Shown here in pieces: positions 2,143 to 61,446 of a stretch of 64,000 nucleotides of DNA. Every line of letters starts with the position of its first letter. Position 1 is the stretch's first letter. Position numbers and translations under genes: made by a program. Below the pieces are notes generated by a model that was not told where the DNA came from, made no database searches, and was given only the letters and a program-made list of their open reading frames with translations. Source of the DNA: Citrifermentans bremense (GTDB lineage: Bacteria > Desulfobacterota > Desulfuromonadia > Geobacterales > Geobacteraceae); assembly GCF_014218275.1 (NCBI RefSeq), contig NZ_AP023213.1, forward strand, positions 3,827,501 to 3,891,500, given 5' to 3'.

Positions 2143-3102
2143 ATGGAACCGATTGAACTCACCTTCCCCAGCGACTCCGATCCGGAGCGGCTGGACAGCT
2201 TCATATCCCGCAGTATCCCCGAAGTGACCCGCTCGGCGGCGCTAAGGCTGATCGAGACAGGCTTTGCTACCGTCAACGGCGCAAAACAAAAACCCGCCCT
2301 GAAACTGAAGGGGGGCGAGGTGGTCCAGGTGGTGATACCGCCTCCGGTGCCGGCAGAGCCCCAGCCCGAGGAGATCCCCATCGAGGTGCTCTACGAGGAT
2401 GCCGAGCTGGTGGTGGTGAACAAGGGGGCGGGGATGGTGGTGCATCCCGGTGCCGGCAACCCGGAAGGGACCCTGGTGAACGCGCTATTGGCCCACTGCA
2501 AGGACCTCTCCGGCATAGGCGGGGAACTGCGTCCCGGCATAGTGCACCGCATCGACAAGGACACATCGGGGACTCTGGTGGTGGCCAAGAGCGACCGGGC
2601 CCACAACGCCCTCGCCGAACAGTTCAAGGAGCACACCATCAAAAGGGTGTACCTGGCCCTCGTCTACGGCTCGCCCAAAGAGGACAAGGGGAAAATCGAG
2701 TCCACCATCGGCCGCCATCCCACCGACCGCAAGAAGATGTCCGCCAAGGCGCGCCACGGCAAGACGGCGGTGACCCACTGGAAGGTGGTGGCCCGCTATC
2801 CCGGCATCACCTTGATACGGCTTAGGCTCGAGACCGGCCGCACCCACCAGATCAGGGTGCATATGTCCGAGGCCGGGCACCCGCTTCTGGCGGACGAGGT
2901 GTACGGCGGCACGGGACGTCTGTCCGGCGTGCAGGACCCGGTGCTCAAACAGATGATCAAGTCGATGGGACGGCAGGCGCTGCACGCGAAGACGCTAGGC
3001 TTTCTGCACCCGGTCTCCGGGGAGTACCTGGAGTTCGACACGGAGCTTCCCGCGGACATGGCCGGCATCGTCGCTTACCTGGAAGAAAAGAACAGGGGCT
3101 AG
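2143..3102 (+). CDS. rluD: 23S rRNA pseudouridine synthase, RluD family
   Basis: A 319-residue protein with an N-terminal S4 RNA-binding domain (about 16-75) and a pseudouridine synthase domain. The catalytic motif HRIDKDTSG is at 135-143 with Asp138 as nucleophile, and the downstream RLRLETGRTHQIRVH motif is intact. RluD isomerises uridines in helix 69 of 23S rRNA; this exact specificity is by family. Oddly, the last residues (Asn-Arg-Gly) and the TAG stop at 3100-3102 are built from the first unit of a GGGGCTA repeat array that continues downstream. Confidence 0.93.
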   Translation: MEPIELTFPSDSDPERLDSFISRSIPEVTRSAALRLIETGFATVNGAKQKPALKLKGGEVVQVVIPPPVPAEPQPEEIPIEVLYEDAELVVVNKGAGMVVHPGAGNPEGTLVNALLAHCKDLSGIGGELRPGIVHRIDKDTSGTLVVAKSDRAHNALAEQFKEHTIKRVYLALVYGSPKEDKGKIESTIGRHPTDRKKMSAKARHGKTAVTHWKVVARYPGITLIRLRLETGRTHQIRVHMSEAGHPLLADEVYGGTGRLSGVQDPVLKQMIKSMGRQALHAKTLGFLHPVSGEYLEFDTELPADMAGIVAYLEEKNRG

Positions 3103-3131
3103 GGGCTAGGGACTGGGGGCTGGTAAAACCA
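3094..3131 (+). repeat. GGGGCTA heptad repeat array at the rluD 3' end
   Basis: Imperfect 7-base units (GGGGCTA, GGGGCTA, GGGACTG, GGGGCT) run from 3094 to about 3120, followed by the small hairpin TGGTAAAACCA (3121-3131). The rluD stop codon lies in the first unit. The same unit order and hairpin recur near 27901-27932. Confidence 0.8.
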
Positions 3132-3193
3132 ACCGCCTCCTGGACCCGGCTCCCTGGCATCACCCCTTATATACATAAAAAGAGGTGTCATAC

Positions 3194-3994
3194 ATGGAAA
3201 TGCAAAAGGCAGGAAAGATCCAGTACCTGAAACCCGCCCTCAGCGCAGGCGGAGCCGTGGCCGGCTTCACCACCCGCCACGAGGGTGTTTCACGCCCGCC
3301 GTACAACTCGCTGAACCTCGGGAGCAACACCCTCGACTCCTCCCACAACGTCGAAGGAAACCGCAGCCTTCTGGCCCGAAGCCTCGGCTCCACCCTGGAC
3401 CGCTTCCTTACGGTGAGCCAGGTGCACGGGACCGATCTGCTGGTGATCGACGCCCCCAACCCTGAGCTCTCCCACTTCCTGAAGCTCGAATGCGACGGCA
3501 TCGTCACCAACCAGCCGGGGATCATGATCGCCATCTGCGTCGCCGACTGCGTCCCGATCCTTCTGCACGACCCGGTTAAGCGCGTGGTGGCGGCCCTGCA
3601 CGCCGGATGGCAGGGAACTGTGGGGAACATAGTCGGCAAAGGGGTGGAGGCTATGACCACGCTGTTTGGCTGCGAGCGCAAGGACATCCGCGCAGCCATC
3701 GGCCCGCACATCTCCGGCTGCTGCTACGAAGTGGACCAGCCGGTCCGCGACGCCTTCAAGAAAGCGGGCGCCGCCTGGGACCTGGCCGCCAAGGAGCAGG
3801 GAGACGGCAAATGGCTGCTCGATTTGGGAGAAGCGAACCGGCTGCTGCTCAAGGATGCCGGGCTTCGCGCCGACCAGATCCAGTCCAGCGACCTCTGCGT
3901 CAGCTGCAACCAGGAGCTCTTCTTCTCCTACCGCCGCGACGGAGGGGATACCGGCAGGCAGGTGGGATTCATCATGCTGGAGGAAGAGCAATAA
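3194..3994 (+). CDS. pgeF: Peptidoglycan editing factor PgeF (YfiH/laccase-domain family)
   Basis: Family members hydrolyse misincorporated residues from muropeptide precursors in the cytoplasm and bind a metal through conserved Cys and His. Visible signatures are CVADCVPILL, LHAGWQGTVGNIV and IGPHISGCCYEV, in the usual order. I start at ATG 3194 because AGAGGTG lies at the right distance; an upstream in-frame GTG at 3185 would overlap that site. The resulting 266 residues is normal. An rluD-pgeF order is common in proteobacteria, although here a repeat array separates the two. Confidence 0.9.
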   Translation: MEMQKAGKIQYLKPALSAGGAVAGFTTRHEGVSRPPYNSLNLGSNTLDSSHNVEGNRSLLARSLGSTLDRFLTVSQVHGTDLLVIDAPNPELSHFLKLECDGIVTNQPGIMIAICVADCVPILLHDPVKRVVAALHAGWQGTVGNIVGKGVEAMTTLFGCERKDIRAAIGPHISGCCYEVDQPVRDAFKKAGAAWDLAAKEQGDGKWLLDLGEANRLLLKDAGLRADQIQSSDLCVSCNQELFFSYRRDGGDTGRQVGFIMLEEEQ

Positions 3995-4070
3995 GCTGTG
4001 GCACTTACGGTAAGGTTCTGATATAAGACGGCATGGAAGTTAGAACCAGTTAGAGGAGGGCTTCATCCAG

Positions 4071-5105: not shown

Positions 5106-5148
5106 TCCCCCTCGCCATCCCCTGACGCCAAGGCTGCGGGGGACAAGG

Positions 5149-14875: not shown

Positions 14876-16039
14876 ATGAAAAAGACCCTTTACGCTTACA
14901 TCTTCAAGGAAATCCCCCCCCCTTTCCTGGTCGGCATGGTGACCTTCACCTTCGTGCTCCTCATGGGACGCTTCCTCAAGCTGGCGGAGATGGTGGTGGA
15001 GAAGGGGGTCCCCTTCGGCGACGTGGTCCGGATGGTGGCATACCTCCTCCCGCCGTTCTGGCTCTTCACCATCCCGATGGCGCTTTTGCTCGCCATGCTG
15101 CTTGCCTTCGGCCGCCTTTCCGGCGACAGCGAAATCACCGCCATGAAGAGTTGCGGCATCAGTCTCTACGGGCTCCTCCCGCCCCCCCTGGTTTTCGCCG
15201 CCTGCGCCACCCTAGCCTGCCTCTGGGTCACCGTCTACGCCGTCCCCTGGGGGAACTCCGGCTTCAAGAAGCTCATGGTGGAGATCGCCCAGAGCAGCGC
15301 GGGGATCGCCATCAAGGAGAAGGTCTTCAACAACGCCTTCCCCGACATGGTCATCTACACCCAGACCCTGGATACCAAGGCTCAGACCATGGGTGGGGTG
15401 ATCGTTCACGACGAGCGGGATCCCCGCACCCCGACCACCATCTTCGCCTCCACCGGCGCGCTGGTCTCCGACCCCAAATCGAACTCCATGGAGTTCCAGC
15501 TGCGTAACGGATCCATCCACCGCGCCGAGGAAAAGGGGGGGTACCGGATGGTGCAGTTCCAGGAATACAACCTGAGGGTGTCGCTCGCCGAGGGGGGGAG
15601 CAAGGCCCCCAGGAAGGCGAGCGAGATGACGCTCGACGAGCTGCTTCACCCCCCAAAGGGAGCACAGCAAAAGGAGATCCTCTCCAGGGGCCTCGAATAC
15701 CACGGCCGCCTGGCACTCCCCTTCTCCTGTTTCGTCTTCACGCTTTTGGCCATACCTCTGGGGATCCAGAACCGCCGCTCGGGGAAGGCCTCCGGGTTCT
15801 CCCTTAGCATCGGCGTCATACTCCTTTACTACGTCGCCCTCTCCGCCTTCAAGACGCTCGGGGAGCGGGGCATGCTGCCGCCGCTTGCAGCCGGATGGGG
15901 CCCGAACCTCGTATTCCTCCTGGCGGGTATCTACCTGTTCAAGAAAACGGCCGACGAAGAACGTCTTCCCATCTTCTACCTCTACCCGCGCCTGAAGGAG
16001 GCGTTGCGGGGACGCCTGGGCAAGGGGGGGAAACGATGA
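14876..16039 (+). CDS. lptF: LPS export ABC transporter permease LptF (YjgP/YjgQ family)
   Basis: A polytopic inner-membrane protein with three N-terminal and three C-terminal membrane segments around a periplasmic beta-jellyroll (about 105-270). With LptG and LptB2 it pulls lipopolysaccharide from the inner membrane. Family marks are the N-terminal YIFKEI and the C-terminal LAIPLGIQNRRSGKA coupling helix. An in-frame ATG at 14864 lies inside the likely -10 box, so I prefer ATG 14876 (387 residues); no ribosome site precedes either. It overlaps lptG by ATGA. LptB is not in this window. Confidence 0.9.
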   Translation: MKKTLYAYIFKEIPPPFLVGMVTFTFVLLMGRFLKLAEMVVEKGVPFGDVVRMVAYLLPPFWLFTIPMALLLAMLLAFGRLSGDSEITAMKSCGISLYGLLPPPLVFAACATLACLWVTVYAVPWGNSGFKKLMVEIAQSSAGIAIKEKVFNNAFPDMVIYTQTLDTKAQTMGGVIVHDERDPRTPTTIFASTGALVSDPKSNSMEFQLRNGSIHRAEEKGGYRMVQFQEYNLRVSLAEGGSKAPRKASEMTLDELLHPPKGAQQKEILSRGLEYHGRLALPFSCFVFTLLAIPLGIQNRRSGKASGFSLSIGVILLYYVALSAFKTLGERGMLPPLAAGWGPNLVFLLAGIYLFKKTADEERLPIFYLYPRLKEALRGRLGKGGKR

Positions 16040-17118
16040 CCATCCTCACCCGCTACATAGCGAAGGCCTACCTGAAGATGCTCTCGCTCTGCCTGGGCTC
16101 GTTCCTCACCATCTACCTGGTAGTCGACTTCATGGAGAAGGTCTCCCGCTTCACGCGCGCCGGCGCAAGCTGGAAGCACCTGGCCCTCTTCTTCATCACC
16201 AAGATCCCGGAGATGATCATCGACGCGGCGCCCCTTGCCGTCCTGATGGCGACGCTGCTCACCCTGGGGACCCTGTCGCTCACTTCCGAGCTCACCGCGA
16301 TACGCAGCTGCGGGGTGAGTCTCTTCCGCATCAGCCTCCCTATCCTGGTCATCTCAGTGCTGATGAGCCTCGGGGTGCTGGCCATAGGTGAGTTCGTGCT
16401 CCCCAAGAGCTTCGCGCAGCGCACCTACATACAGGAGGTGCTGATCCAGAAGAAAAGCCCCAGCGCCTTTTTCCGGCAGCAGAACATCTGGTTCAGAGAG
16501 GAAGGGACGGTGCTCAGGGCGAGCCTTTTCGAGCCGGCGAGAAACGAACTGAAGGGGATCACCCTTTGGGAGCTCCAGCCTCAGACCGGGGAGCCGCTCA
16601 AGCGGACCGAAGCGGACATGGCGCTTCTGGGACCCAAGGGGTGGGTGTTCCGGGACGTGACGGTGCGGCAGTTCAGCGGCGGGGAGATCACGGCAACGCA
16701 GAAGTACCGCGAGCTGCCGGTCCAGCTCCAGCTGAAGCCCGCCGACCTGAAGACGCTGGGGAAATTTTCCGACAGCATGTCGCTTGTGGAGCTTGCCCGC
16801 TACTGCAGGAAGCTCAGAGCCAGCGGCTACGACCCCACCAGGTACGTCACCCAGATGCACAGCAGGATCTCGATGCCCTTCGGCTGCGCGGTGATGGCGT
16901 TTCTGGGGATTCCTTTCGCCTTGCGCGGCGGGAGGTCGAGCGGGATCGCCTTCGGCGTCGGCCTCTCCATCGGGGTCGGCTTTCTCTACGTCATCGTCAA
17001 CTCCGTGATCATCTCGGTGGGGCAGGTGGGGCTGCTGCCGCCCGTGGTGGCGGCGTGGGCGACCAACTTCATCTTCTTCGTGGCTGGCGCGTGGCTGTCG
17101 CTTACGATTGACAACTGA
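16036..17118 (+). CDS. lptG: LPS export ABC transporter permease LptG
   Basis: A 360-residue partner of LptF with the same architecture: membrane helices at about 12-115, a periplasmic jellyroll, and C-terminal helices with FLGIPFALRGGRSSGIAFG. ATG 16036 overlaps the lptF stop in ATGA. The reading frame is open further upstream, but the overlap and the family start (TILTRYIAKAYL) fix the start. The last residues, Thr-Ile-Asp-Asn, and the TGA stop are made of GATTGAC-AACTGAC heptads. Confidence 0.93.
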   Translation: MTILTRYIAKAYLKMLSLCLGSFLTIYLVVDFMEKVSRFTRAGASWKHLALFFITKIPEMIIDAAPLAVLMATLLTLGTLSLTSELTAIRSCGVSLFRISLPILVISVLMSLGVLAIGEFVLPKSFAQRTYIQEVLIQKKSPSAFFRQQNIWFREEGTVLRASLFEPARNELKGITLWELQPQTGEPLKRTEADMALLGPKGWVFRDVTVRQFSGGEITATQKYRELPVQLQLKPADLKTLGKFSDSMSLVELARYCRKLRASGYDPTRYVTQMHSRISMPFGCAVMAFLGIPFALRGGRSSGIAFGVGLSIGVGFLYVIVNSVIISVGQVGLLPPVVAAWATNFIFFVAGAWLSLTIDN

Positions 17119-26983: not shown

Positions 26984-27814
26984 CTACCCCCTGATTCTCA
27001 GGGCCTCCGCATAGACCTCGCTCTTGTGGAGGCCCGTTTCCAAAGTCACCCTCTTCACGGCGTCCTTCAACGTCATCTCCCCGGAAGAAAGATACTTCTG
27101 CAGCAACTCTTCCATCCCTGGCGCGTCCGTTGCCTCCGGCTCCTCCGCGGGGGTGACCAGGATCGCCACCTCCCCCCGGATCTCCCTTTCCTGCACCTGC
27201 ATGACCAGTGCGGAAAGCCTCCCCCGCAGGAACTCCTCGTACATCTTGGTGAGTTCCCGCGCCACCACGACCTCTCGATCCCCCATGGTTTCCAGCATGT
27301 CCTGCAGGGTCGCCAGGAGGCGCTTGGGCGACTCGTAGAAGATCAGCACCGCCCTGTCGCCGGCAAGCGACTGCAGCCGCTCGCGCCTTTTCCCCTGCTT
27401 ATTGGGAAGAAAACCCGCGAAGCTGAAGTGGTCGGTGGGAAGCCCCGAGGCCGAGAGTGCGGTGATGGCGGCACAGGCGCCGGGAATGGGAACCACGGAG
27501 ATCCCGCCCGCGACCGCGTCGCGCACGAGCTGGTAGCCCGGGTCCGAGATGCAGGGTGTCCCGGCATCGGTGATGAGGGCGACGCTCTGTCCCTCTCGGA
27601 GCCGGTCCAGGATCTGGTCCCCCTTCAGGTCCTTGTTGTGGTCGAAGTAGGAGGTGAGCGGCTTGGAAATGCCGAAATGGGTGAGGAGCTTCCTGGAGTG
27701 GCGGGTATCCTCGGCCGCGACCAGGTCCACCTCCTTCAGGATGCGCAGGGCGCGCAAGGTGATGTCCTCGAGATTGCCGATCGGCGTGGCTACGATGTAA
27801 AGAGTTCCGGACAT
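26984..27814 (-). CDS. rsmI: 16S rRNA 2'-O-ribose C1402 methyltransferase
   Basis: A 276-residue tetrapyrrole-methylase-fold enzyme. GTLYIVATPIGNLEDITLRA at the start, VAAEDTRHSRKLL and ITDAGTPCISDPGYQLV are RsmI signatures. It methylates the ribose of C1402 in the decoding centre of 16S rRNA. The frame is open upstream to 27886, but that extension is translated from the repeat array; ATG 27814 with AGG before it is the natural start. Confidence 0.94.
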   Translation of the reverse strand: MSGTLYIVATPIGNLEDITLRALRILKEVDLVAAEDTRHSRKLLTHFGISKPLTSYFDHNKDLKGDQILDRLREGQSVALITDAGTPCISDPGYQLVRDAVAGGISVVPIPGACAAITALSASGLPTDHFSFAGFLPNKQGKRRERLQSLAGDRAVLIFYESPKRLLATLQDMLETMGDREVVVARELTKMYEEFLRGRLSALVMQVQEREIRGEVAILVTPAEEPEATDAPGMEELLQKYLSSGEMTLKDAVKRVTLETGLHKSEVYAEALRIRG

Positions 27815-27830: not shown

Positions 27831-27933
27831 GGGGCTAGGGGCGGGGGACCAGGGGCTAGTGAACCAAAGTCGGGGCTAGGGGCCAAGGGGGGGCTGGTTT
27901 TACCAGTCCCTAGCCCCTAGTCCCTAGCCCCGG
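27831..27933 (-). repeat. GGGGCTA heptad array between nadE and rsmI
   Basis: The right half, read on the minus strand, carries GGGGCTA-GGGACTA-GGGGCTA-GGGACT followed by the hairpin TGGTAAAACCA, starting three bases after the nadE stop. The left half carries GGGGCTA units in the opposite orientation, so the whole element can fold on itself. Its layout matches the rluD array. Confidence 0.8.
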
Positions 27934-32146: not shown

Positions 32147-32177
32147 CCAGCCCCTAGCCCCCAGCCTCTAGCCCCTG
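32147..32177 (-). repeat. GGGGCTA heptad array between the SPOUT methylase and rplS genes
   Basis: On the minus strand units GGGGCTA, GAGGCTG, GGGGCTA and GGGGCTG begin five bases after the methylase stop. This places a repeat inside the ribosomal operon, in the transcribed spacer before rplS. Confidence 0.75.
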
Positions 32178-37145: not shown

Positions 37146-37412
37146 ATGGATACAGCGCTCAAGGCAGCGGCTCTGATCATTTTGGCTACTGCAGTCAACA
37201 TACCGCTCGGGTACCGCCGGCAGTACTACCCGAAGTTTTCTTTCGGCTGGTATTTCTACGTCCACATTTCCATTCCCGCCATCGTCTACTTCAGGATCAA
37301 GACGGGGCTTGGCTGGGGATTTATCCCCTTCAGCATCACCAGTGCTATTATCGGACAGGTGATCGGCGGCAGGATGCACAGAAAGAGAAACAAGGTTGAA
37401 AAAACCGACTGA
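37146..37412 (+). CDS. Small membrane protein of unknown function
   Basis: An 88-residue protein with hydrophobic segments at about 5-20, 32-50 and 57-75 and a basic tail (MHRKRNKVEKTD). No family recognised. ATG 37146 follows AGAGGG. An in-frame start nearer the promoter would lie inside the -35 box and is rejected. Its end overlaps the DciA-like gene by 17 bases, so the two are probably cotranslated. Confidence 0.75.
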   Translation: MDTALKAAALIILATAVNIPLGYRRQYYPKFSFGWYFYVHISIPAIVYFRIKTGLGWGFIPFSITSAIIGQVIGGRMHRKRNKVEKTD

Positions 37413-37881
37413 CAAGCGCCCCAGGATGCGCAGGCCGGCTCCAGTCTCCGACCTTCTGAGCCAGATGCTGCACGGCACCCCGGCCGAGCAGAGGCTGAAG
37501 GAGGGGCGCATCTGGCTGGTCTGGGATGAAGCAGTGGGAAGCCGCATCGCCTCCCATGCCCAGCCCTCGTCCTTCAGGGCGGGCGCCCTCACCATCAGCG
37601 TGGACAGCTCCCCGTGGTTGCAGCAGCTCAACTATCTGAAGAAAGAACTGATCGGCAAGGTCAACGACGCGCTCGAAGAAGAGCTCGTAACGGAGCTGCA
37701 GTTCAAGGGGGGTAAGGTGAATCCCTCCTCCGCAATAAAGTCCCCCGCCCCTCCCAAGCGCCGGGATTTGAGCGACGAAGAAAGGCAGTGGATCGAGGAA
37801 CAGGCAGAATCCGTCGCCGACCCGGAACTGCGTGCCGTATTCGAAAGCCTCATCCGAAAAGACAAGGAAAGCAGGGGCTAG
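37396..37881 (+). CDS. DUF721/DciA-like protein
   Basis: A 161-residue protein with the DUF721 core at about 17-105: LSQMLHGTPAEQRLKEGRIW, then LVWDEAVGSRIASHAQPSSF and GALTISVDSSPWLQQLNYLK. DciA proteins of this family load the replicative helicase in bacteria that lack DnaC. The start is TTG 37396 behind CAAGG, inside the previous gene. The last residues (Ser-Arg-Gly) and the TAG stop are the first unit of a GGGGCTA array. Confidence 0.82.
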   Translation: MKKPTDKRPRMRRPAPVSDLLSQMLHGTPAEQRLKEGRIWLVWDEAVGSRIASHAQPSSFRAGALTISVDSSPWLQQLNYLKKELIGKVNDALEEELVTELQFKGGKVNPSSAIKSPAPPKRRDLSDEERQWIEEQAESVADPELRAVFESLIRKDKESRG

Positions 37882-37902
37882 GGGCTGGGGGTTAGGGGCT
37901 AC
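37873..37902 (+). repeat. GGGGCTA heptad array at the DUF721 gene 3' end
   Basis: Units GGGGCTA, GGGGCTG, GGGGTTA and GGGGCTA start inside the last codons of the DUF721 gene, supplying its TAG stop at 37879-37881. They fill the gap to the converging four-helix-bundle gene. Confidence 0.8.
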
Positions 37903-37905: not shown

Positions 37906-38271
37906 CTAAGCTCTTGCCTCCAATGATCTCTGCAGCGCCCGAAGCATCTTGCCTAGTTCTACGTACTTATGCAACAGCTGGTCGACAGTGTCGCTCCCCA
38001 CGTACTCAATCCTTTGCCCGATCAAAAGCTGTGTCTCAACTTCCGCAACAGAACCCAAGCTGATGTTAAGAAAATGAATGAAGTCCTTAGTACTTCCTCG
38101 GGCATGCCCTTCCGCAATATTTGACGGTACGGACACAGCAGCCCTTTGAAGTTGGCTGGACAACCCAAAGATCTCTGATTTCGGGAACAGACGAGTCACG
38201 TCGTACACCTCTGCAGCCAGATCAACGCCAAGCTGCCAAACCTTCAGGTCGCGGTAACTGTGAATCTCCAT
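37906..38271 (-). CDS. Four-helix-bundle protein (S23 / 23S rRNA intervening-sequence family)
   Basis: A 121-residue all-helical protein. YRDLKVWQLGVDLAAEVYDV, then LSSQLQRAAVSVPSNIAEGH and FLNISLGSVAEVETQL are the hallmarks of the family first found inside intervening sequences of 23S rRNA genes and common as free genes in many genomes. Function unknown. Here no rRNA is near. The gene stands alone, bracketed on both sides by oppositely oriented GGGGCTA arrays, which suggests acquisition as a unit. Confidence 0.88.
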   Translation of the reverse strand: MEIHSYRDLKVWQLGVDLAAEVYDVTRLFPKSEIFGLSSQLQRAAVSVPSNIAEGHARGSTKDFIHFLNISLGSVAEVETQLLIGQRIEYVGSDTVDQLLHKYVELGKMLRALQRSLEARA

Positions 38272-38280: not shown

Positions 38281-38358
38281 CTGCCTCTGCCTTTTAGCCC
38301 CAGCCTAGTCCCGCCTCTGCCTTTTTAGCCCCCAGTCCCCAGTCCCTAGCCCCTGCCT
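38281..38358 (-). repeat. GGGGCTA heptad array at the methyltransferase gene 3' end
   Basis: Read on the minus strand: GGGGCTA, GGGACTG, GGGACTG, GGGGCTA, then a spacer AAAAGGCAGAGGC that occurs twice with another GGGGCTA. The first unit supplies the methyltransferase TAG stop at 38348-38346. Confidence 0.8.
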
Positions 38359-39104
38359 CTATAGATCCTCAGCTTCTCCTCGCTGTAGCCGCCGTCTTCG
38401 CCTCTCACCATCATGGGGGGCTCCACACGCAGCTCTCCGCTTCTCCCCTTCGCCAATTCGATCATGAACATCCGGGCTTCCATCCGGCTGTTGCCGTGCA
38501 CCATCCTGAGCCTTAACGGTGCCAGCTTCTGCTGGGCGGCCTGCGCCATCAGCTCGGCCAGACGGCTGGTGTGATAGATGAGACAGATCCGCCCGGAAGG
38601 CTTCACGAGGTACTTCGCCGCCGCCAGGAAATCGGCCAGGGCCGCGGTGCTCTCGTGCCGGGAATCGTCGCGCCCTGCCCGGGGACTCACCTTGCCAGTG
38701 CCGGGCCTGCGGTAAGGAGGGTTGGACACGACGAGATCGAAGCTGTCCACCGGGAAACGGGACTTGACAGAGACCACATCCTCCTCGACCACCTCGACGC
38801 GGCCGGAAAGCCCGTTCAGCACGACGTTCCGCTCAGCGATCCGCGCCACCGCCTGCTGGAACTCGATGGCGGCGACGGAGCAGTCCTCGCACAGCCGGGC
38901 CAACAGCAGCGCGATCACCCCGCAGCCGGTCCCGAGATCGACGCAGCTTTCCCCCGCCCGCACTCCGGCGAAGTCGGCCAGAAGCAGCGGGTCCACCGAG
39001 AAACGGTAGCCGTGCCGCGGCTGAATGATACGCAGGTCATAGCCTGAGAGTTGGTCGAGAGTTTCCGATTCCTGGCAGCAAGGCGGCGGTTCCAAGTTGT
39101 CCAC
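38346..39104 (-). CDS. tRNA1(Val) A37 N6-methyltransferase-like (TrmN6 family)
   Basis: A class I SAM methyltransferase of about 252 residues. The SAM motif VDLGTGCGVIALLLA and the catalytic NPPYRRPG (an N6-adenine/N5-glutamine motif) are intact, and the start QPRHGYRFSVDPLLLADF is typical of TrmN6. The start is uncertain: GTG 39104 or TTG 39095, the latter better spaced from AGGGG; a longer frame to 39146 begins in repeat DNA. The last residues, Gly-Arg-Gly, and the stop come from a GGGGCTA repeat. Confidence 0.82.
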   Translation of the reverse strand: MDNLEPPPCCQESETLDQLSGYDLRIIQPRHGYRFSVDPLLLADFAGVRAGESCVDLGTGCGVIALLLARLCEDCSVAAIEFQQAVARIAERNVVLNGLSGRVEVVEEDVVSVKSRFPVDSFDLVVSNPPYRRPGTGKVSPRAGRDDSRHESTAALADFLAAAKYLVKPSGRICLIYHTSRLAELMAQAAQQKLAPLRLRMVHGNSRMEARMFMIELAKGRSGELRVEPPMMVRGEDGGYSEEKLRIYRGRG

Positions 39105-39141
39105 CCCTGCCCCACAGGTGCTTGATTGGCCACAAGTGATA

Positions 39142-39172
39142 CTCAACTGTCAATTCTCCACTGCCAATTGCC
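39142..39172 (-). repeat. TTGACAA-type heptads at the YfhO gene 3' end
   Basis: On the minus strand CAATTGG, CAGTGGA, GAATTGA and CAGTTGA encode the end of the YfhO protein (Gln-Leu-Ala-Val-Glu-Asn) and provide its TGA stop (39152-39150). Confidence 0.65.
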
Positions 39173-41603
39173 TCTTCCTCTGCCACGCTTCCCTTCCCAG
39201 GAAGACGGCGAAGACAGCAAAGGAGGCCAGGGTCAGGTACTTGCCGATCTTGAAGGGAAGCGGGTCGAAGACGAACTCGACCTTGTGCGTTCCCGGGGTT
39301 AGGTAGACCCCGCGCAGCACGTGGTTTACCGGGTAGATCTCGGTGAGCTTCCCGTCCACCGTAGCACGCCAGCCCCGGTAGTATTTCTCTCCCATGACCA
39401 GCAGGGAGTTCATGGCGACCGATGCATCCAGGTCGATCCGCTCCCCTTCATAGCGCACCACGCGCACCTGCCCCGGCGTCGTAGCGATCCGGGCGTTCGG
39501 CGCAGCCAGCGGGATGGGGGGGTCCGACTCCACCACAGCCATGAGCCTCGGGTCGAAAGCGGGGTTTTGCAGCGCCACGAGAGATTCCTGCGCGGAGGTG
39601 GCCTTCAACGCGACAGGCACCAGCCACGCCTTGGGAAGCACGTTCTGATTTTCGAGGATGACGGCACCGCCGTCAGGGGTGGTGAAGACGGGGCGGTACT
39701 TGCCGGCCAAACTCGCCTGATCCTGACGGTACTGGTCCCTCCCCAGCACCAGGTACCTTACGTTGAGCATGTCAGGCATGCTGGAGAGGAGGTTGAAATT
39801 GTCCAGCAATTCCTGCCAGCGACGCTGCTGCACCGCGTTCGAGGTGAACATCACTGGAATTCCTGAATCCGCGTACGGCATCGGGTCGCCCCCCAGGGGA
39901 AGGGTCCGGTACTCCTTGGGCTGGTTGGCGAGAAAAGCGATCTCGGGGGGCTTCACGCCCGCTGCCTTGTGCGGCTCGTCAACGAGGAAAAGGAACTTGG
40001 AATTGACGCGCCCCACGTCCAGCAGGAAAAGCGCGGTCAGCACCAGGGGAACCAGCTTCGCCGCCAGCTTCCCGCGGTGGTACAGGGCGAACGCCGCGGC
40101 GAAAAGAGCGGCAAGCCCTGCAGCGATTGCCGTTTCGGCCACCAGGTTGTTCCAGCGCTCAAGCACGAGCTGCTCGCTTTGGGGCTGGTAGCGGGTCGGC
40201 TGGGCGAGCATGTCGATGAACTGGTTGACCCAGAACTGCCCGGTCGCGATCTCGGTCCCGACCAGCGCCAGGAGAAGCACCGGCAACAGCACGACCCCCA
40301 GGATGTAGCGCTTGAAGGCGCGGGTGGCGCGGACGACCGGGTCCAGCAGCAGGTCGAGCCCCAGTGCGGAGAGCACGCCAAGACCCAGCACTGGGATAAA
40401 CATCATCATCTTCGGGACCCTGAAGCGGTTGATCCCGGGGAAGTAGTCGAAGAGGAGGTTGTAGAAAAGGGTGTATTTCCCCATTGAGAAGAAGATCCCG
40501 ACCACGACCGCGGAAAGGGCGAGCCAGGTGTAGCGGTCGCGCCGGAAGATGAGCGGCAACGGCAACAGGAGCCAGGGGAGAAGTCCCATGTAGCTCACCG
40601 TCTGGGTGAAGTGCATCCGCCCCCAGTAGTAGGCGTCTATGTTGTCGGGGTTTTCCCCAGCTTCCTGGCGGGAGAACCCGAACATGCCGGGAATGATGAA
40701 GGCGGCGGCTTCCTCCGGCGGCATGGACCAAGACATTGCCTCCTCGCGGGCCAGGCCGCCTTTCGCCTCAGAGCTGCCGGAAGCCGTGGACACATTGGCG
40801 CCGCTGTTCACGCCGCGGTTGGTGTCCTTGGACCAGTTGGCCAGAGGTACCAGCGAGATGGCGACGGTGGTGAGGAAGAACGCCAGGAGCGCAAGGTTCA
40901 GCCCGAACAAGCGGCGGAACTCCTTCTTCCCCTCCGGTTCCCCCATCACGATCGCCAGCGAGCGGGCGATGCCGTAGACGCCGACGGCGAGACAGGTGTA
41001 GTAGGCGATCTGCCAGTGGGTGTGAAAGAATTGGAAGGCAAGCACGACTGCGGTGGTCAGGAAAAAGATCAGGCGCCTGGTGATGAACCCCTTCTCCAGG
41101 AAGTAAAAGGCCCAGGGCGCAAAAGTGATGGTGGCGATCTTCATCACGTGCCCGGCGTTGATCAGGGAAGCATTTTCGGGGGCGACGGCGAAGACGAGGC
41201 CCGCCAGGAAAGAGGCGGGCCTGCCCGCGCCGATGAGCCGGCAGAGGCAGTAGGTGCCGGCCGCGCCGAAGAAAAGCTGCGCCACGATGTACCACGCGAC
41301 GCTTGCCGGCGCGGGGAAGATCCAGAAGATCAGGTTTCGGATGATGAGGAACTGCTCCGAAACCATCCCCCCCTCGTTGGTGTGCCCGGAGTTCAGCAAG
41401 GGGTTCCACCCCGCGCTGGAGAAGTCGACCTTGAACAGTGAAAGAAACGGCCTGCTCCCGAAGCCCTTGATGCCCCAGTAGAACTCGTTGATGATGTCAG
41501 GGGCGCGGATGATCTGCGAGGTAAATAGTATTTTGGAAAAAAGTATCAAGAGCACTGCCAGCAGGCCGGACAGTATCAGCAGGTCTTTTTTGCGCTCGGT
41601 CAT
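39150..41603 (-). CDS. YfhO-family polytopic membrane protein
   Basis: An 817-residue protein with about a dozen membrane helices in the first 550 residues and an extracytoplasmic C-terminal domain (about 560-775), then a last helix. The early loop (RAPDIINEFYWGIKGFGSRP, then the Asn-Pro-Leu-Leu-Asn-Ser-Gly-His segment) and LINAGHVMKIATITFAPWAF match YfhO proteins, thought to be GT-C-like glycosyltransferases working on lipid-linked sugars or teichoic acids. At the end of the polysaccharide cluster it could transfer or polymerise lipid-linked glycans; no other Wzy-like gene is seen. The reaction is inference. Confidence 0.88.
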   Translation of the reverse strand: MTERKKDLLILSGLLAVLLILFSKILFTSQIIRAPDIINEFYWGIKGFGSRPFLSLFKVDFSSAGWNPLLNSGHTNEGGMVSEQFLIIRNLIFWIFPAPASVAWYIVAQLFFGAAGTYCLCRLIGAGRPASFLAGLVFAVAPENASLINAGHVMKIATITFAPWAFYFLEKGFITRRLIFFLTTAVVLAFQFFHTHWQIAYYTCLAVGVYGIARSLAIVMGEPEGKKEFRRLFGLNLALLAFFLTTVAISLVPLANWSKDTNRGVNSGANVSTASGSSEAKGGLAREEAMSWSMPPEEAAAFIIPGMFGFSRQEAGENPDNIDAYYWGRMHFTQTVSYMGLLPWLLLPLPLIFRRDRYTWLALSAVVVGIFFSMGKYTLFYNLLFDYFPGINRFRVPKMMMFIPVLGLGVLSALGLDLLLDPVVRATRAFKRYILGVVLLPVLLLALVGTEIATGQFWVNQFIDMLAQPTRYQPQSEQLVLERWNNLVAETAIAAGLAALFAAAFALYHRGKLAAKLVPLVLTALFLLDVGRVNSKFLFLVDEPHKAAGVKPPEIAFLANQPKEYRTLPLGGDPMPYADSGIPVMFTSNAVQQRRWQELLDNFNLLSSMPDMLNVRYLVLGRDQYRQDQASLAGKYRPVFTTPDGGAVILENQNVLPKAWLVPVALKATSAQESLVALQNPAFDPRLMAVVESDPPIPLAAPNARIATTPGQVRVVRYEGERIDLDASVAMNSLLVMGEKYYRGWRATVDGKLTEIYPVNHVLRGVYLTPGTHKVEFVFDPLPFKIGKYLTLASFAVFAVFLGREAWQRKRQLAVEN

Positions 41604-51903: not shown

Positions 51904-51915
51904 GGGCTGAACAGT

Positions 51916-52032: not shown

Positions 52033-52274
52033 GATGTGACGAATTGAATTTGGATGTGACGAATTGAATTTCAATTTGACGAATTGGATTTGGATATGAC
52101 GAATTCGGATTCAGATGTGACGAATTGGATTTCAATTTGATGAATTGGATTTGGATATGGCGAATTCGGATTCAGATGTGACGAATTGGATTTGGATGTG
52201 ACGAATTGGATTTGGATGTGACGAATTGAATTCGGATGTGACGAATTGGATTCAGATATGACGAATTCGGATCA
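52033..52274. repeat. Tandem array of twelve 20-bp units
   Basis: Twelve head-to-tail copies of a 20-base unit (two are 21), consensus GATGTGACGAATTGGATTTG, with no spacers. Units begin at 52033, 52053, 52073, 52093, 52114, 52134, 52154, 52175, 52195, 52215, 52235 and 52255. TGACGAATT is the most constant core; variation falls in the flanks (GATAT, AATTT, GAATTC). The period is close to two helical turns, so the cores lie on nearly one DNA face. Confidence 0.93.
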
Positions 52275-52326: not shown

Positions 52327-53505
52327 TCAGATGTCCTTGCGAAGGGATTCATAGATCTCAACGAGCTCCTTCCCCCTTGCCTGCCATGAATGGAGGGCTA
52401 TGGCGCGCTCGCGCCCTTCCTTTCCCAGCACTTCCCTCAACTCCCGGTCGCCTGCCAGCCGACCTATGGCGCCGGCCAGGTCCGCCGCATCGCCGAACTT
52501 GGCGTACAACGCCGCATCTCCCAATATCTCGCGGTTGACTGGGGTGTCGAAGACGACGGTGGGAAGCCCGCAGGCGATGTAGTTGAACAGCTTGCCGTTC
52601 GCCTCGGTGAGCGAGACCTTGGGCGAGACCGCCAAATCTCCTGCAGATAGATAAAGAGGCGCTTCGCTGTACGGGATCCTGCCGGTGAAGGTGATGATGT
52701 CGTCGACCCCCATCTCCTCGGCCTTCTCCCGGTACGCAGCCTCAGGGAACCCCATGATAAGGTAATGCAGTTTCGCCCCCTGCCCTTTCAGGTTCGCCGC
52801 GGCCTCCAGGAGCAGGTCGACCCCCTGGTAGCTGTTCATCAGCCCCAGGTAGACGACGACGGGACGCTTCTGCGGCAGCCCGAGCCGGGCACGGATCTCT
52901 TCTTTGGGCTGGGGAGCGAAGACGCCGGTGTCGACGCCGTCGATGAGCGCCCGGACCCGCTCCTTCGGTACGCCGTCGAACAAGAGCAGATCCACGGTCG
53001 GGGTAGCGCTGGTGACGATGAAATCGGAGCTGCGGTTGATCCAATGCTCCAGGGTGGCGAAGAAGCGCTGCAGCAGGGAACCGGGCTTGACGAAGCCGTG
53101 GTCGGTGATCTCGGCGGTGAGGCTTCCCTGGCAGTCGAAGAGCATAGGGACTCGGATCAGCATCTTGAGAAAGGCGCCGAAGAAGGCGCCTTCGTGAAGG
53201 TGGGCGTGAATCAGGTGCGGCTTGAACTGACGCGCTACCTTGAGGGCCTTGAAAAGGAGCTGCAGATCGAGGAATGGCTTGACCCAGGATGGACCGGCTT
53301 CGAGCTTCTTGTACCAGGAGAACCCTGAGATCCTCTCCGTGGGGATGCCGGGGACGTCGTTGCCGATGTGGTAGGTGACCAGGCGCATCTCAACGTCGCA
53401 GGCCATGGCGGCTCTCGCCTCCTCGAGGATGCGGACGTGGCACCCCCGGTCGGCGAAGAACGGGGTAGGCGCCAGCACCAGTACGCGCAAAGGCCGCTCA
53501 GCCAA
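52327..53505 (-). CDS. GT4-family glycosyltransferase
   Basis: A GT-B enzyme of 392 residues. LRVLVLAPTPFFADRGCHVR opens the fold, PHLIHAHLHEGAFFGAFLKM is the acceptor-side motif, VVYLGLMNSYQGVDLLLEAA marks the donor domain and KVSLTEANGKLFNYIACGLP replaces the usual E-x7-E. The start is uncertain: TTG 53505 overlaps the previous stop (TTGGCTGA), a later TTG is at 53490. The upstream frame is a shadow of the previous gene. Confidence 0.86.
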   Translation of the reverse strand: MAERPLRVLVLAPTPFFADRGCHVRILEEARAAMACDVEMRLVTYHIGNDVPGIPTERISGFSWYKKLEAGPSWVKPFLDLQLLFKALKVARQFKPHLIHAHLHEGAFFGAFLKMLIRVPMLFDCQGSLTAEITDHGFVKPGSLLQRFFATLEHWINRSSDFIVTSATPTVDLLLFDGVPKERVRALIDGVDTGVFAPQPKEEIRARLGLPQKRPVVVYLGLMNSYQGVDLLLEAAANLKGQGAKLHYLIMGFPEAAYREKAEEMGVDDIITFTGRIPYSEAPLYLSAGDLAVSPKVSLTEANGKLFNYIACGLPTVVFDTPVNREILGDAALYAKFGDAADLAGAIGRLAGDRELREVLGKEGRERAIALHSWQARGKELVEIYESLRKDI

Positions 53506-54442
53506 AGTTGAGCTTGTCCTTGATGTTGTAGATCGGCTTTCCCTGCGCCTCGTAATAGGTCCGGGCGGAGAGTTCGGCCAAAAGCCCAAGGACGATGAAC
53601 TGCACCCCCATGAAGAGGAGGAACGCGGTCAGAATCAGGAGCGGGTTGCGGTTCATGCTCATGCCTTCGAAGAACTTCATGTAGACGGTGGCCGCGCCGC
53701 TCAGGCACCCTGCGGCGAGGGTGTAGATCCCCCAGCGGCCGAAGAGCTGGATCGGCTTGGTGGAGTAGCTTAGGAGGAATTTGACCGTCATCAGGTCGAG
53801 GATGACCTTCATGGTGCGGGAGATGCCGTACTTGCTCTTGCCGTGCAGCCTTTCATGGTGCCGCACCGGCATCTCGGTCACCCGGGCGCCGACCTGGTGG
53901 GCGAGCGCGGGAACGAAGCGGTGCATCTCCCCGTAAAGGTTCACATCGTCCAGCACGTCGCGGCGGTAGGCCTTCAGGGTGCAGCCGTAGTCGTGCAGAT
54001 GCACGCCGGTCATCCTGGAGATCATGCCGTTGGCAAGCATGGAAGGGAGCTTGCGGTTCACGAAGGTGTCTTTGCGGTCCTTGCGCCACCCGGAGACCAC
54101 GTCATACCCCTCGTCGATGCGCGCCAAAAGCAGCGGGATGTCCAAGGGATCGTTCTGCAGGTCCCCGTCCATGGGAATGACCACGCGCCCTGAGGCGGAA
54201 TCGAAGCCGGCTGCCATGGCTGCGGTCTGCCCGAAATTGCGGCGCAGGCGGATCACCCTGACCCGGTCGTCCTTCGCGGCCAGGCGCTTCAAACCGGAAT
54301 AGGAATTGTCTGAAGAGCCATCATCCACGAGTATCAGCTCGTACTCGAGGTTGGTATCCCCCAGCGCCTCGGTGACCCGCTCATGCAGAATCGGGATGTT
54401 GTCTTCCTCGTTGTAAATCGGGACTACGATGCTGAGATCCAC
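53498..54442 (-). CDS. GT2-family polyprenyl-phosphate glycosyltransferase-like membrane enzyme
   Basis: A 314-residue protein. SIVVPIYNEEDNIPILHERV, LVDDGSSDNS and IPMDGDLQNDP are the nucleotide and metal motifs of DPM/GtrB-type enzymes; VRHHERLHGKSKYGISRTMK is also typical. Two C-terminal membrane helices (about 232-255 and 266-290) anchor it. Such enzymes load a sugar on undecaprenyl phosphate or modify lipid-linked glycans. It is coupled to the next glycosyltransferase. Confidence 0.9.
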   Translation of the reverse strand: MDLSIVVPIYNEEDNIPILHERVTEALGDTNLEYELILVDDGSSDNSYSGLKRLAAKDDRVRVIRLRRNFGQTAAMAAGFDSASGRVVIPMDGDLQNDPLDIPLLLARIDEGYDVVSGWRKDRKDTFVNRKLPSMLANGMISRMTGVHLHDYGCTLKAYRRDVLDDVNLYGEMHRFVPALAHQVGARVTEMPVRHHERLHGKSKYGISRTMKVILDLMTVKFLLSYSTKPIQLFGRWGIYTLAAGCLSGAATVYMKFFEGMSMNRNPLLILTAFLLFMGVQFIVLGLLAELSARTYYEAQGKPIYNIKDKLNFG

Positions 54443-54471: not shown

Positions 54472-54563
54472 GTTCAAGGTTCAAGGTTCAACGTTCATAG
54501 AATCCGTTCAACGTTCTGCGTTCAACGTTCAAATCCGTTCAAGGTTCAACGTTCGACCTTCAA
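54472..54563 (-). repeat. GTTCAAC heptad array at a glycosyltransferase 3' end
   Basis: On the plus strand about a dozen 7-base units (GTTCAAG, GTTCAAC, GTTCATA, GTTCTGC, GTTCAAA and others) are broken by two short AATCC/TCC inserts. The first unit on the minus strand (TTGAAGG) contains the TGA stop of the gene at 54560. Confidence 0.85.
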
Positions 54564-55615
54564 TTACAAATCTCGCTATCCGCGAAGGCCTTCACCCGCC
54601 TCACTTCGACATCCCAGTGGGTCTGCTTGCCACCCCGGTAACGGGGACGGGCAAGGCCGCGCAAAACGCCTGCGCCGTAGACCAAGTGAAGCGTCGGAAA
54701 CACCAGCAACAGCCTGGGGAGCAGCGACAGGTCGCCCTGGGTGAAGGTAGCGGCAACTGAGGCTGTGGCAACCAAGATCAGGTAGCAAAGAAGCGGCAAC
54801 AAATAAAAGCCCCCTCCCAAGCCCGCTACGAGGAACGGGAGCGACAGGAGGTAGATTAGAAACAACGACGGCGCGAGGGAGACCGGCTTCACCTTGCCCG
54901 AGATCAGGGTCTGCTCGCCGCGTCCCCGGCCGTAACCGTACATCTGCCTGACGTACGCGCGATAGGTCCTGCGCTGGCTGCGCACCACGGCAAGTTCAGG
55001 GTCGTGCACCAGCAGGTTTCCCTCCTGCTGCAGCCGGTCCATCAGCTCGTTCTCCTCGTTCGGGTAGAGCCGCTCGTCCAGCCCCTCGTGGGAGAGGAAG
55101 ATGTCGCGTCTGAAGCTTAGATTGCAGAGGATCAGCTCGCTGTCGTTGCTGTACCGGGCGCTCCCGCTCTTCCGATATCGGTTGCGCACCCCGCCGCCGC
55201 CAACCGGAGAGGTGAAGGCGATCCCTATCGCCCTTTGCAGCGGCGAATCGGTGGCAGGGGTGAGTGAGGGACCTCCTACCGCCGCGACCTTCGCCTCCCG
55301 GTAGTGGGCCGCCGCCCGGACAAGAAAGTCAGGTGCGACCAGGGAATCGTCGTCCAGGAAATAGAGGAGCTCTCCCCTGGCCTCGCGGGCGGCGACGTTT
55401 CTCTGCACGCTGGGCTGACAGCCGTAGGCGACCAGCACTTCGAAAAGGTCGTCCGGATAGGCCGCCTCTCGCACGCCGGCCAGGGCACGCACCTCGCCCC
55501 CCGGCTTCACCGGTATGATGATGGAGAACTTGGGGAGCGCCGCAGGGTCGGACCGCAGGGCCGGCTGAAGATCTCCCCCGGGTAGAGGAACGTCGGGGGG
55601 GGGGCTATTGGACAA
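54560..55615 (-). CDS. GT2-family glycosyltransferase with C-terminal membrane helices
   Basis: A 351-residue enzyme. FSIIIPVKPGGEVRALAGVR starts the GT-A fold; LLYFLDDDSLVAPDFLV gives the metal site and YPNEENELMDRLQQEG an ED-like motif. Two or three membrane helices follow (about 245-300). The apparent start TTG 55615 overlaps the cytochrome gene by 11 bases and lacks a clear ribosome site, so it is likely coupled. The stop TGA and last residue lie in a GTTCAAC-type heptad. Confidence 0.85.
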   Translation of the reverse strand: MSNSPPPDVPLPGGDLQPALRSDPAALPKFSIIIPVKPGGEVRALAGVREAAYPDDLFEVLVAYGCQPSVQRNVAAREARGELLYFLDDDSLVAPDFLVRAAAHYREAKVAAVGGPSLTPATDSPLQRAIGIAFTSPVGGGGVRNRYRKSGSARYSNDSELILCNLSFRRDIFLSHEGLDERLYPNEENELMDRLQQEGNLLVHDPELAVVRSQRRTYRAYVRQMYGYGRGRGEQTLISGKVKPVSLAPSLFLIYLLSLPFLVAGLGGGFYLLPLLCYLILVATASVAATFTQGDLSLLPRLLLVFPTLHLVYGAGVLRGLARPRYRGGKQTHWDVEVRRVKAFADSEICN

Positions 55616-58885: not shown

Positions 58886-59003
58886 GGCCGTCTCCCGGAA
58901 AGGTGATCGTACAGCTTGGTTATAGTCAGGCGAGCCATTATAGTCAAATTGACAATAAGCGCAAAATAAAAATTGCGAATACAATGGGGGGGGTAACAAA
59001 AAA

Positions 59004-59028
59004 GGGGCGACAGGATACCTGTCGCCCC
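59004..59028 (-). terminator. Terminator of the triheme cytochrome gene
   Basis: GGGGCGACAGG (59004-59014) and CCTGTCGCCCC (59018-59028) are perfect complements with a three-base loop. On the minus strand TTTTTTGTTACC follows. Confidence 0.92.
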
Positions 59029-59059
59029 TAAATCCAGCAATCATCCTCTTAGAGGAGCA

Positions 59060-59329: not shown

Positions 59330-59419
59330 TAGGAGTCCCTCCATAAATTTAAAATATGTGCGGCTCGAAAGTATACAACCCCGGCCCTTCTGTCAAGCAA
59401 AATCACTGAGAAGGCCGCT

Positions 59420-59926: not shown

Positions 59927-60010
59927 TTTTCAATCTCCGGGAAACCTTTCGTTTTTCACCCCTAGCCATTTTTCTTCTCTCAGAATTCTCCGTGGCTAGA
60001 GCTTGTGGTT

Positions 60011-61282
60011 TTAGCGCTTCATCGCCTTGGCGCCGATGTCCTTCCTGTAATGAACGCCGGGCCAGGAGATCTCTTTAACTCCCTGGTAGGCGCGCTCGAT
60101 CGCTTCCTTGACCGTTGTGCCCAAAGCGGTCACGCCAAGCACGCGGCCGCCGCTGGTGACCACCCCCTCGCCGGTCGCCTTGGTTCCGGCGTGGAACACG
60201 ACGAGGTCCTCTATCCGCCCTGCGGCGTCGAGCCCGGCGATGAGGTCCCCCTTGCGGTAGTCCGCCGGGTACCCCTCGGCCGCCATGACCACGCAGACCG
60301 CCGCCTTGTCGTGCCACTCTATCTCCACCCCCTCCAGGCTACCGGAGGCGACGGCCATGAGAATGGGGACTATGTCGGACTTCATCCGCATCAAAAGAGG
60401 CTGGCATTCGGGGTCGCCGAAGCGGGCGTTGAACTCCAGGGTCTTCACCGAGTCGCCGTCGATCATGAGTCCAGCGTAGAGGACGCCGCGGTAGGTACGC
60501 CCCTCGGCCTTCATCCCGTCCACGGTGCGGCGCATCACCTCGGCCATGGCCTTGTCGTGGATGGCGGGGGTGACCACCGGTGCCGGGGAGTAGGCTCCCA
60601 TCCCGCCGGTATTGGGCCCCTGGTCGCCGTCAAAGACGGCCTTGTGGTCCTGGGCGCTAGCAAGCGGGATGATCCTTTCGCCGTCGGTGAAGGCGAGGAA
60701 GGAGGCTTCCTCCCCTTTCAGGAACTCCTCGATGACCACCCTGGAGCCTGCCGCGCCGAAGGCGTTGCCGGAGAGCATGTCGGTCACGGCCGCAACCGCC
60801 TCGTCGCGGGTCTGGGCGATGATCACCCCTTTGCCTGCGGCAAGCCCGTCCGCCTTGATGACGATGGGGATCCCAGTACGGTCGATGAAGGAGACGGCGG
60901 GCTCGACTTCGGTGAAGACGCCGTAGGCCGCGGTGGGGACGTTGTACTTGTGCATCAGGTCCTTCGAGAACGCCTTGCTCGCCTCTATGATGGCGGCGTT
61001 TTTCCTGGCGCCGAACGCCTTCAGGCCGTTCTCCTCGAACAGATCGACGAGACCCAGGGAAAGCGGAAGCTCCGGGCCTACCACGGTGAGTTCGACCCCT
61101 TCCTTGCGGGCGAAGTCGAGGAGCCCCTGGAGGTTGTCCACCGCTATGTCCACGTTTTGCGCCAGGGTGGCCGTTCCCGGATTCCCCGGCGCGCAGAACA
61201 CCTGGCTTACCAGCGGGGACTGGGCGATCTTCCAGACCAGCGCGTGCTCGCGCCCTCCGCTACCTACTACCAAAACCTTCAT
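60011..61282 (-). CDS. purD: Phosphoribosylamine-glycine ligase
   Basis: A 423-residue ATP-grasp enzyme joining glycine to phosphoribosylamine. KVLVVGSGGREHALVWKIAQ at the start, GLAAGKGVIIAQTRDEAVAA and EFNARFGDPECQPLLMRM are intact. ATG 61282 follows AAGGAG; the frame open to 61441 is translated repeat DNA. It lies between purH and purE on one strand, with a large hairpin upstream. Confidence 0.96.
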   Translation of the reverse strand: MKVLVVGSGGREHALVWKIAQSPLVSQVFCAPGNPGTATLAQNVDIAVDNLQGLLDFARKEGVELTVVGPELPLSLGLVDLFEENGLKAFGARKNAAIIEASKAFSKDLMHKYNVPTAAYGVFTEVEPAVSFIDRTGIPIVIKADGLAAGKGVIIAQTRDEAVAAVTDMLSGNAFGAAGSRVVIEEFLKGEEASFLAFTDGERIIPLASAQDHKAVFDGDQGPNTGGMGAYSPAPVVTPAIHDKAMAEVMRRTVDGMKAEGRTYRGVLYAGLMIDGDSVKTLEFNARFGDPECQPLLMRMKSDIVPILMAVASGSLEGVEIEWHDKAAVCVVMAAEGYPADYRKGDLIAGLDAAGRIEDLVVFHAGTKATGEGVVTSGGRVLGVTALGTTVKEAIERAYQGVKEISWPGVHYRKDIGAKAMKR

Positions 61283-61300
61283 AAGCAAACTCCTTAAACC

Positions 61301-61446
61301 AATTAACAATGGATAATTGACAATTGACGATGAAAACCTGGCCTCCCCGTCCAGTTGCAGCACAACCTGGTGCGGACGGCATGAAAGAGACAATGGACAA
61401 TGGCAACAAAGCGTTGTCAATTGTCCATTGTCAATTGTCAATTGAG
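61301..61446 (-). repeat. TTGACAA-type heptad arrays forming a hairpin between purH and purD
   Basis: Two blocks of 7-base units, ATTGACA-ATTGACG at 61301-61332 and TTGTCAA-TTGTCCA-TTGTCAA at 61413-61446, lie in opposite orientation. Within the second, GACAATGGACAAT (61389-61401) pairs perfectly with ATTGTCCATTGTC (61420-61432). The array ends three bases from the purH stop. Confidence 0.85.

Follow-up and report, generated by a model that had tools for sequence, protein, structure and literature searches.

What are the short tandem repeats inside which several protein genes of Citrifermentans bremense end, and why do they supply stop codons? The question is raised by a window of 64,000 nucleotides (nt; the whole stretch of DNA analyzed) that is part of a single contig of 4,458,493 bases in a 4.46-Mb genome. 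An earlier note on this window had described gene ends made of heptad repeats and overlooked an inverted-arm architecture, in which two such arrays flank a small gene for a four-helix-bundle protein of the PF05635 family (23S_rRNA_IVP; here, IVP gene). The arrays are best read, and probably correctly, as the arms of a repeat/protein system, a selfish element resembling the intervening sequences (IVS) of 23S rRNA and the repetitive extragenic palindromes with their associated tyrosine transposases (REP/RAYT).

Heptads stand out in this genome. In a sample made up of the window and 60 systematic 20-kb stretches (1.264 Mb in all, with 1145 genes called by a hexamer model and 86% coding), period 7 was the outlier among periods 4 to 15, with 22 intergenic and 2 coding arrays; other periods gave at most 6 intergenic arrays each, except period 14, a multiple of 7, with 13. 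At a lower threshold there were 36 intergenic period-7 arrays, 34 of which (manual count) belong to three families: A (AGGGGCT), B (CAATTGA), and C (GTTCAAC). Whole-genome pattern matches numbered 139, 147, and 63 for A, B, and C, against 6, 0, and 6 for reversed-pattern controls. A units are G-rich, and B and C units lack runs of G. Arrays were typed by hand from the listed matches, one place each, which gave 84 clusters, a set that omits some weak or overlapping matches and does not hold every array; the clusters comprise 127 arms, 124 of them with two flanking genes, and 32 pairs. Four units is the commonest arm length in all three families (58/124 arms), and 92/124 arms have four to five units.

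The open reading frame (ORF) between the A arms of the window matches PF05635 with an E value of 5.2e-39 and, below the cut-off, Pfam bAvd. A second PF05635 gene (E 1.3e-30) lies between C arms at another locus and a third between B arms; these are the only three matches above the cut-off in the genome, each between matching inverted arms and one for each heptad family. Two weaker PF05635 matches have no arrays nearby. In the 1.264-Mb sample, matching inverted heptads bracket 3/3 IVP genes versus 1/1003 other genes, and 0/217 of the other genes of ≤150 codons. In secondary-structure prediction the two ends of the window element would pair (z score, −2.49; 0/100 shuffles as good), and the B pair at 61300..61444 also folds better than shuffles (z score, −3.57; 1/200 shuffles as good). 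Protein sequence is conserved: one pair of B-type genes has a dN of 0.048 and a dS of 0.856, and for A and C types the median dN is ~0.22, with synonymous sites saturated in the pairs printed. Among 22 congeneric loci, the gene is co-directional with both neighbors in all 18 tandem cases, where the outer arm edges lie −7 to +14 nt from the upstream stop.

Bracketing by arms recurs well beyond this genome. PF05635 was found above the cut-off in 41/48 genomes of the same bacterial family and in 0/14 control genomes. The family set comprised 99 rows above the cut-off (manual count), of which 86 were looked at; the 13 dropped were incomplete, lay at contig ends, or were short matches of a different kind. 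Among 74 unique loci, arms of period 5 to 12 flanked the gene on one side or both in 71 and on both sides in 63, compared with 16/72 and 1/72 for control windows in the same loci. Two loci below the cut-off, L148 and L149, lack arrays and stand outside the 74. In another twelve loci, of which four have partial or broken genes and one (L230) is below the cut-off, arms are present on both sides throughout. A scan of named genomes used the best 80 of at least 586 matches, 12 of which were dropped for short flanks. By record title these loci include Proteobacteria, Bacteroidetes, Planctomycetota, Acidobacteria, Anaerolineae, a cyanobacterium, Clostridia, Verrucomicrobia, Patescibacteria, and ANME-1 archaea. 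With full flanks, 60/68 have an arm on at least one side and 46/68 on both, against 37/126 and 2/126 control windows. The best arms in all 80 named loci are of period 7 in 102/124 cases and of period 8 in 16/124. Period 7 is nevertheless not obligatory, as 13 of the 16 family genes without a period-7 array at the first threshold are flanked, on one or both sides, by an array with a different period. At one common junction in five congeners, which looks like gspC/gspD, the IVP gene has mostly 6-nt arms, ATAAAG or ATTAAG (L167, L170, L171, L172, and L174).

IVP genes also occur on plasmids, where 8 of 19 matching records were studied, all eight cyanobacterial: each has an arm, and 6/8 have arms on both sides by program. 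Some lie at operon junctions, for example, cas6/cas4, cas10/cmr3, and between two ribonucleotide reductase genes. In the phage collection there was no IVP match at an E value of 1e-5. In L372, L377, and L378, short tandem arrays adjoin IVP genes located at a cas6/cas4 or cas10/cmr3 junction. Excerpts of the literature place IVP genes in cas operons (PMC3936711), and armed IVP genes at cas junctions may explain their reported occurrence near CRISPR systems (PMC3936711 and PMC10910872).

The two arms are usually inverted copies of one unit, and the unit follows the protein. Among the loci flanked on both sides by period-7 arms (n = 93), reverse-complementing the left unit gives the right one, with at most one mismatch, in 79 (5% against other loci), and the inverted reading is better than the direct one in 83, with the direct reading better in 8 and a tie in 2. 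Unit distance correlates with protein distance (Mantel r = 0.39, n = 118; 0.59 in the family, n = 57; 0.26 across phyla, n = 61), a value reached by 0/2000 permutations. All 36 pairs under 0.25 protein distance have a unit in common within one mismatch. At 25 to 40% protein divergence, 64% of 171 pairs still do, which is much for noncoding DNA. Units vary widely among lineages, with a weak common oriented pattern (log-likelihood per unit, −7.22 versus −7.45±0.06 for shuffled letters). Dispersal of the TGGTGAT repeat follows the gene: this unit, carried by the IVP arms of G029 and G032, has 105 and 66 matches there, 15 and 1 in their congeners G031 and G030, and 0 in the other 44 genomes. CGAGGTT, picked from G031 (108 matches), has 137 in G033, whose own IVP gene has the CGAGGTT unit. 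Some arms continue into long arrays of other units (gggaact, agaggga, and aggcaaa at L101 and L106), as if seeding secondary slippage.

How the arms of the C. bremense genome come to overlap stops can be seen from their placement. Tabulation of array positions against stops, which the earlier note had proposed, revealed a nonrandom pattern: forward arms lie behind a stop, and reverse arms lie ahead of the next start or of the stop of a convergent gene, a rule obeyed by 108/124 arms. The nearest gene end is a stop for 84/124 arms (median distance, 5 nt) and a start for 40/124 (median, 22.5 nt). Overlap with stops itself is not enriched (17/124 arms versus 26±4 expected for arms placed uniformly at positions that touch the gap). 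In the twelve A overlaps the arm starts 9 nt (6 arms), 16 nt (5 arms), or 23 nt (1 arm) ahead of the last base of the stop, corresponding in each of the three frames to the first TAG encountered, so that the proposed in-frame position loses its special character. Forward units have no excess of stop triplets (37/89 versus 34.6±3.7 in shuffled units), whereas their reverse complements have one (30 versus 20.2±3.5). Stop overlap arises because 7 mod 3 = 1, and because overlap is not enriched and A overlaps begin at the first in-frame TAG, the supply of stops is mechanical and looks like a by-product. Given the overlap count and the lack of a forward excess, stop capture as a selected function is rejected as the main cause.

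Replacement of native stops was followed at the trmN6-dciA junction and at rluD in 19 congeners, with rluD and part of the trmN6-dciA reading done by eye. The trmN6-dciA gap is only 13 bp in G020, while in G000, G012, G021, and G023 it contains an A-armed four-helix-bundle gene (409 to 464 bp) and in G028 it keeps the A arms and has lost most of the gene (132 bp). In all five genomes with these arms, DciA ends in RG on an array TAG, and the last residues of TrmN6 are GRG in three of them and, in the other two, are coded by the array in a different frame. G019 lacks the gene and has an A-like array where dciA stops, and 10 other congeners have different inverted repeats and different C termini (by eye). 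The rluD stop is made by an A unit in 10/19 congeners, an A unit lies directly behind TAA in 2, and the unit is missing in 7, whose final residues differ (all by eye). For yfhO, G000 and G011 have a B-type stop, which the 15 other yfhO genes found all lack (2/19 genomes yielded no yfhO). The comparison of orthologues, array-bearing ones ending in array-coded residues and array-free ones otherwise, supports insertion at 3' ends and indicates that the replacement of native stops is real, as the earlier note had supposed. The junction looks like a repeat hotspot. Other inverted-arm families occupy it in L312, L318, and L329 (ccacagagaaaatctgag; CGCAAAG type; CGCGGATTT type), and in L328 (G027) another heptad (GGGATGA/GGGCTGA) seems to give trmN6 its TGA.

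In the selfish-element reading, a PF05635 gene with its heptad arms would be the core, and further arms of its heptad, single or as inverted pairs, are scattered through intergenic gaps. Arms would persist where they are harmless, directly after stops and mostly far enough before starts to spare the ribosome-binding site. An arm that reached into the last codons would give the gene a new end within the array, since any stop triplet in a 7-nt unit comes up in each of the three frames over a length of 21 nt. The protein would bind its own heptads and aid their spread or persistence in trans, the arms would pair in mRNA, and the element, by analogy, might travel like a 23S rRNA IVS or like REP/RAYT. 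Solved relatives of the protein (2GSC, which is Xanthomonas XCC0516, and 2RLD) have five chains each.

Several observations weigh against this reading. No array reached the threshold in 8/68 named loci and 3/74 family loci, the one-sided control rate in named genomes is high (37/126), and the IVP gene is opposite to both neighbors in 2/8 plasmid loci. The 18 co-directional loci represent few orthologous groups, the Mantel result is partly shared descent, and CGAGGTT occurs in 18/48 genomes, beyond the one it was picked from. G019 and G011 have no PF05635 match, and G013 and G028 have only short PF05635 matches, of the kind that is armless at L148 and L149, the two such loci scanned; nonetheless, G019 has 248 A and 130 B matches, and the other three genomes have some. 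A counts in genomes with an A-armed gene (84, 81, 29, 40, and 50) overlap those of 14 congeners without one (0 to 248). The overlap and the array-rich, gene-free G019 imply that the gene is not needed at present, and G019 rules out a strict rule of no gene, no arrays. Within the C. bremense genome, the two arms of a dispersed pair (12 A, 12 B, and 8 C pairs) complement each other no better than they complement arms at other places, and the interiors are mostly unrelated (5 matches at E below 0.01 among 32 pairs), so these pairs do not represent copies of a single mobile unit. Neither target duplication nor movement was seen, we know of no catalytic domain in PF05635, and both the gene model and the array scorer were home-made.

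The fixed orientation of 108/124 arms, the median of 5 nt to a stop, the covariation of unit and protein, and the two window elements predicted to fold better than shuffles would also suit a different explanation, that the arrays are functional 3'-end elements (terminators or sites of mRNA processing or stability) held near stops by selection, with the protein as an autoregulating binder acting via its own arms. The majority of comparable repeats are transcribed, according to excerpts of Rehm 2015 (PMC4692102), which fits this explanation too. It is nevertheless unlikely, since the trmN6-dciA junction bears different repeat families in the 19 congeners and is nearly empty in one, in several convergent gaps the arms already enclose a separate hairpin that resembles a terminator (by eye), and arm numbers are quite different among congeners.

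Two further explanations dispense with a role for the protein. That three heptads make up 34/36 arrays, that orientation is fixed, and that bracketing singles out PF05635 genes and recurs across phyla, already largely refutes plain microsatellites, i.e., slippage anywhere with selection sparing intergenic copies and an incidental protein link, even though array length is variable, period-7 arrays are nearly missing from coding sequence, and stop overlap is no higher than uniform placement predicts; little probability, the least of any explanation here, is left to them. Hardly more probable is a plain family like miniature inverted-repeat transposable elements (MITEs), copies of one element that an ordinary transposase left behind, the PF05635 gene being a passenger. 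Inverted arms around a short interior, presence and absence among congeners, and one pair of interiors with 42 nt in common at 88% are what such a family would show, but most pairs have no interior in common, many dispersed arms stand alone, and the arms consist of tandem heptads that differ in unit as the protein differs. The lack of added complementarity between the arms of dispersed pairs and their mostly unrelated interiors rule out an origin of these pairs as copies of one MITE.

Should the selfish-element reading extend beyond this genome, PF05635 proteins of bacteria and some archaea might each recognize and propagate their own short tandem repeat, many bacterial heptads that lack an explanation might belong, as cognate arms, to a single ancient class of selfish elements, the protein might set the period, as though each protomer of a five-chain protein took up one heptad of an arm of four to five units, and captured stops might be the footprint of traffic through operon junctions; this wider proposal is put forward tentatively, as something slightly less than an even chance. 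To our knowledge, heptad repeats have long been known without a maker, and 23S-IVP or "four helix bundle" proteins are common and without an established function. The association described here links these two orphans. If the protein handles its own heptad, a single experiment could put both to the test, and the gene could serve to predict repeat families. Traffic of arms would explain the strong divergence of some gene ends among congeners and offers a reason for IVP genes in cas operons, and armed PF05635 genes in many bacteria and some archaea suggest a widespread, unrecognized repeat-spreading genetic element.

Within the window itself, five of the six gene ends claimed in the earlier note lie in repeats, three of them cleanly. 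The rluD-like gene (2143-3102, +) ends in EEKNRG-stop, dciA (37396-37881, +; DUF721 in the note and DciA in Pfam) in KESRG-stop, and the TrmN6-like methyltransferase gene (38346-39146, −) in YRGRG-stop, each with its TAG within an A array. The yfhO gene (39150-41603, −) ends in LAVEN-stop within a degenerate array, and the glycosyltransferase gene (54560-55615, −) ends in ICN-stop, with its TGA in the first unit of a C array that is oriented like an upstream arm of the next gene. The sixth, lptG (16036-17118; TIDN-stop), has no array, only ~1.7 degenerate units (by eye). The genes identified beside the window IVP gene are dciA, the TrmN6-like gene, and yfhO, and the B pair is flanked by an AICARFT/IMPCHase gene (purH-like, 61450-63012, −) and a GARS gene (purD-like, 60011-61282, −). 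About 12 copies of a 20-nt repeat (GATGTGACGAATTGGATTTG), not a heptad, lie in a single gap at 52033-52272.

Table 1. Heptad arrays and the PF05635 gene in the 64-kb window (positions within the window)
Feature	Position	Strand	Evidence
A-family arm (AGGGGCT units), TAG source (3100-3102) for rluD-like gene	3094..3123	+	congener comparison
A-family inverted pair (forward 27837-27857, reverse 27905-27931), gap between − strand genes 26984-27814 and 27936-28757	27837..27931	.	
A-family arm, directly 3' of stop of gene 32183-32752 (−)	32149..32176	-	
A-family arm, left arm of PF05635 element; gives dciA (37396-37881) its TAG	37873..37901	+	
Four-helix-bundle gene, PF05635 23S_rRNA_IVP / TIGR02436, 121 aa, inverted A arms on both sides	37906..38271	-	E 5.2e-39
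A-family arm, right arm of PF05635 element; gives TrmN6-like methyltransferase (38346-39146, −) its TAG	38326..38354	-	
Degenerate B-type array (CAATTGA type), contains yfhO TGA (39150-39152)	39142..39169	-	
C-family array (GTTGAAC on − strand), gap between genes 53498-54442 and 54560-55615	54472..54564	-	
B-family inverted pair (61300-61331 and 61414-61444), gap between purH-like and purD-like genes (both −)	61300..61444	.	

Gene-end capture of stops, thought undescribed in the earlier note, is in print, and the overlap reported here is a by-product of that kind. G-rich heptads of Xanthomonas and Nostoc are intergenic, prefer four units, lie near and overlap stops on the sense strand, and form inverted pairs in Xanthomonas (70 and 75 cases) (Rehm 2015; PMC4692102). 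The present arrays resemble them in all of these respects and differ in that B and C are not G-rich and in their protein gene, none being linked to the heptads in the excerpts of PMC4692102. TAACTGA repeats of Beggiatoaceae, also intergenic heptads, overlap the upstream stop in 13 sets, explained by stops in three frames, with S1, Csp, and CsrA as candidate binding proteins; unlike the present arms, they lie mostly before starts (MacGregor 2015; PMC4679880). In Geobacter, 4-fold GGGACCG heptads in 49 places and intergenic direct repeats of 6 to 42 nt are likewise intergenic but are cast as possible regulatory elements, with no PF05635 link in the excerpts (PMC2700814 and PMC2996986). A search of the open-licence PMC literature, with preprints and most subscription journals outside it, found no association of PF05635 with heptad arms among the matches listed, and as far as this search shows, the link between the protein and its cognate arms is not described.

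Diversity-generating retroelements carry a reverse transcriptase and template and variable repeats beside Avd. The window protein matches bAvd below the cut-off, and PF05635 is linked to Avd in excerpts of PMC10053308, but no reverse transcriptase is among the identified neighbors of the window gene. A 23S rRNA IVS sits inside an rRNA gene and is removed from the transcript by RNase III. Excerpts of PMC4990558 describe an S23/IVP ORF in the loop between terminal inverted repeats, in a 428-nt element with a 28-bp stem. The window element, of the same gene family, is 482 nt with 29-nt arms that are likewise predicted to form a terminal stem, and matching inverted units occur in 79/93 loci. It differs in lying between the protein genes dciA and TrmN6-like rather than in rRNA, and in having arms of tandem heptads that are also dispersed in the genome.

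In REP/RAYT systems, a tyrosine transposase gene is flanked by inverted copies of a dispersed intergenic short repeat, with one repeat family per gene. Here, too, the flanking repeat is the dispersed repeat (A, B, and C in the C. bremense genome; TGGTGAT in G029 and G032), but the bracketed genes are PF05635 rather than tyrosine transposase genes, and the repeats are tandem arrays rather than single palindromes. The window system fails a defining feature of both the 23S rRNA IVS and REP/RAYT, and if propagation in trans were demonstrated, it would be categorically new.

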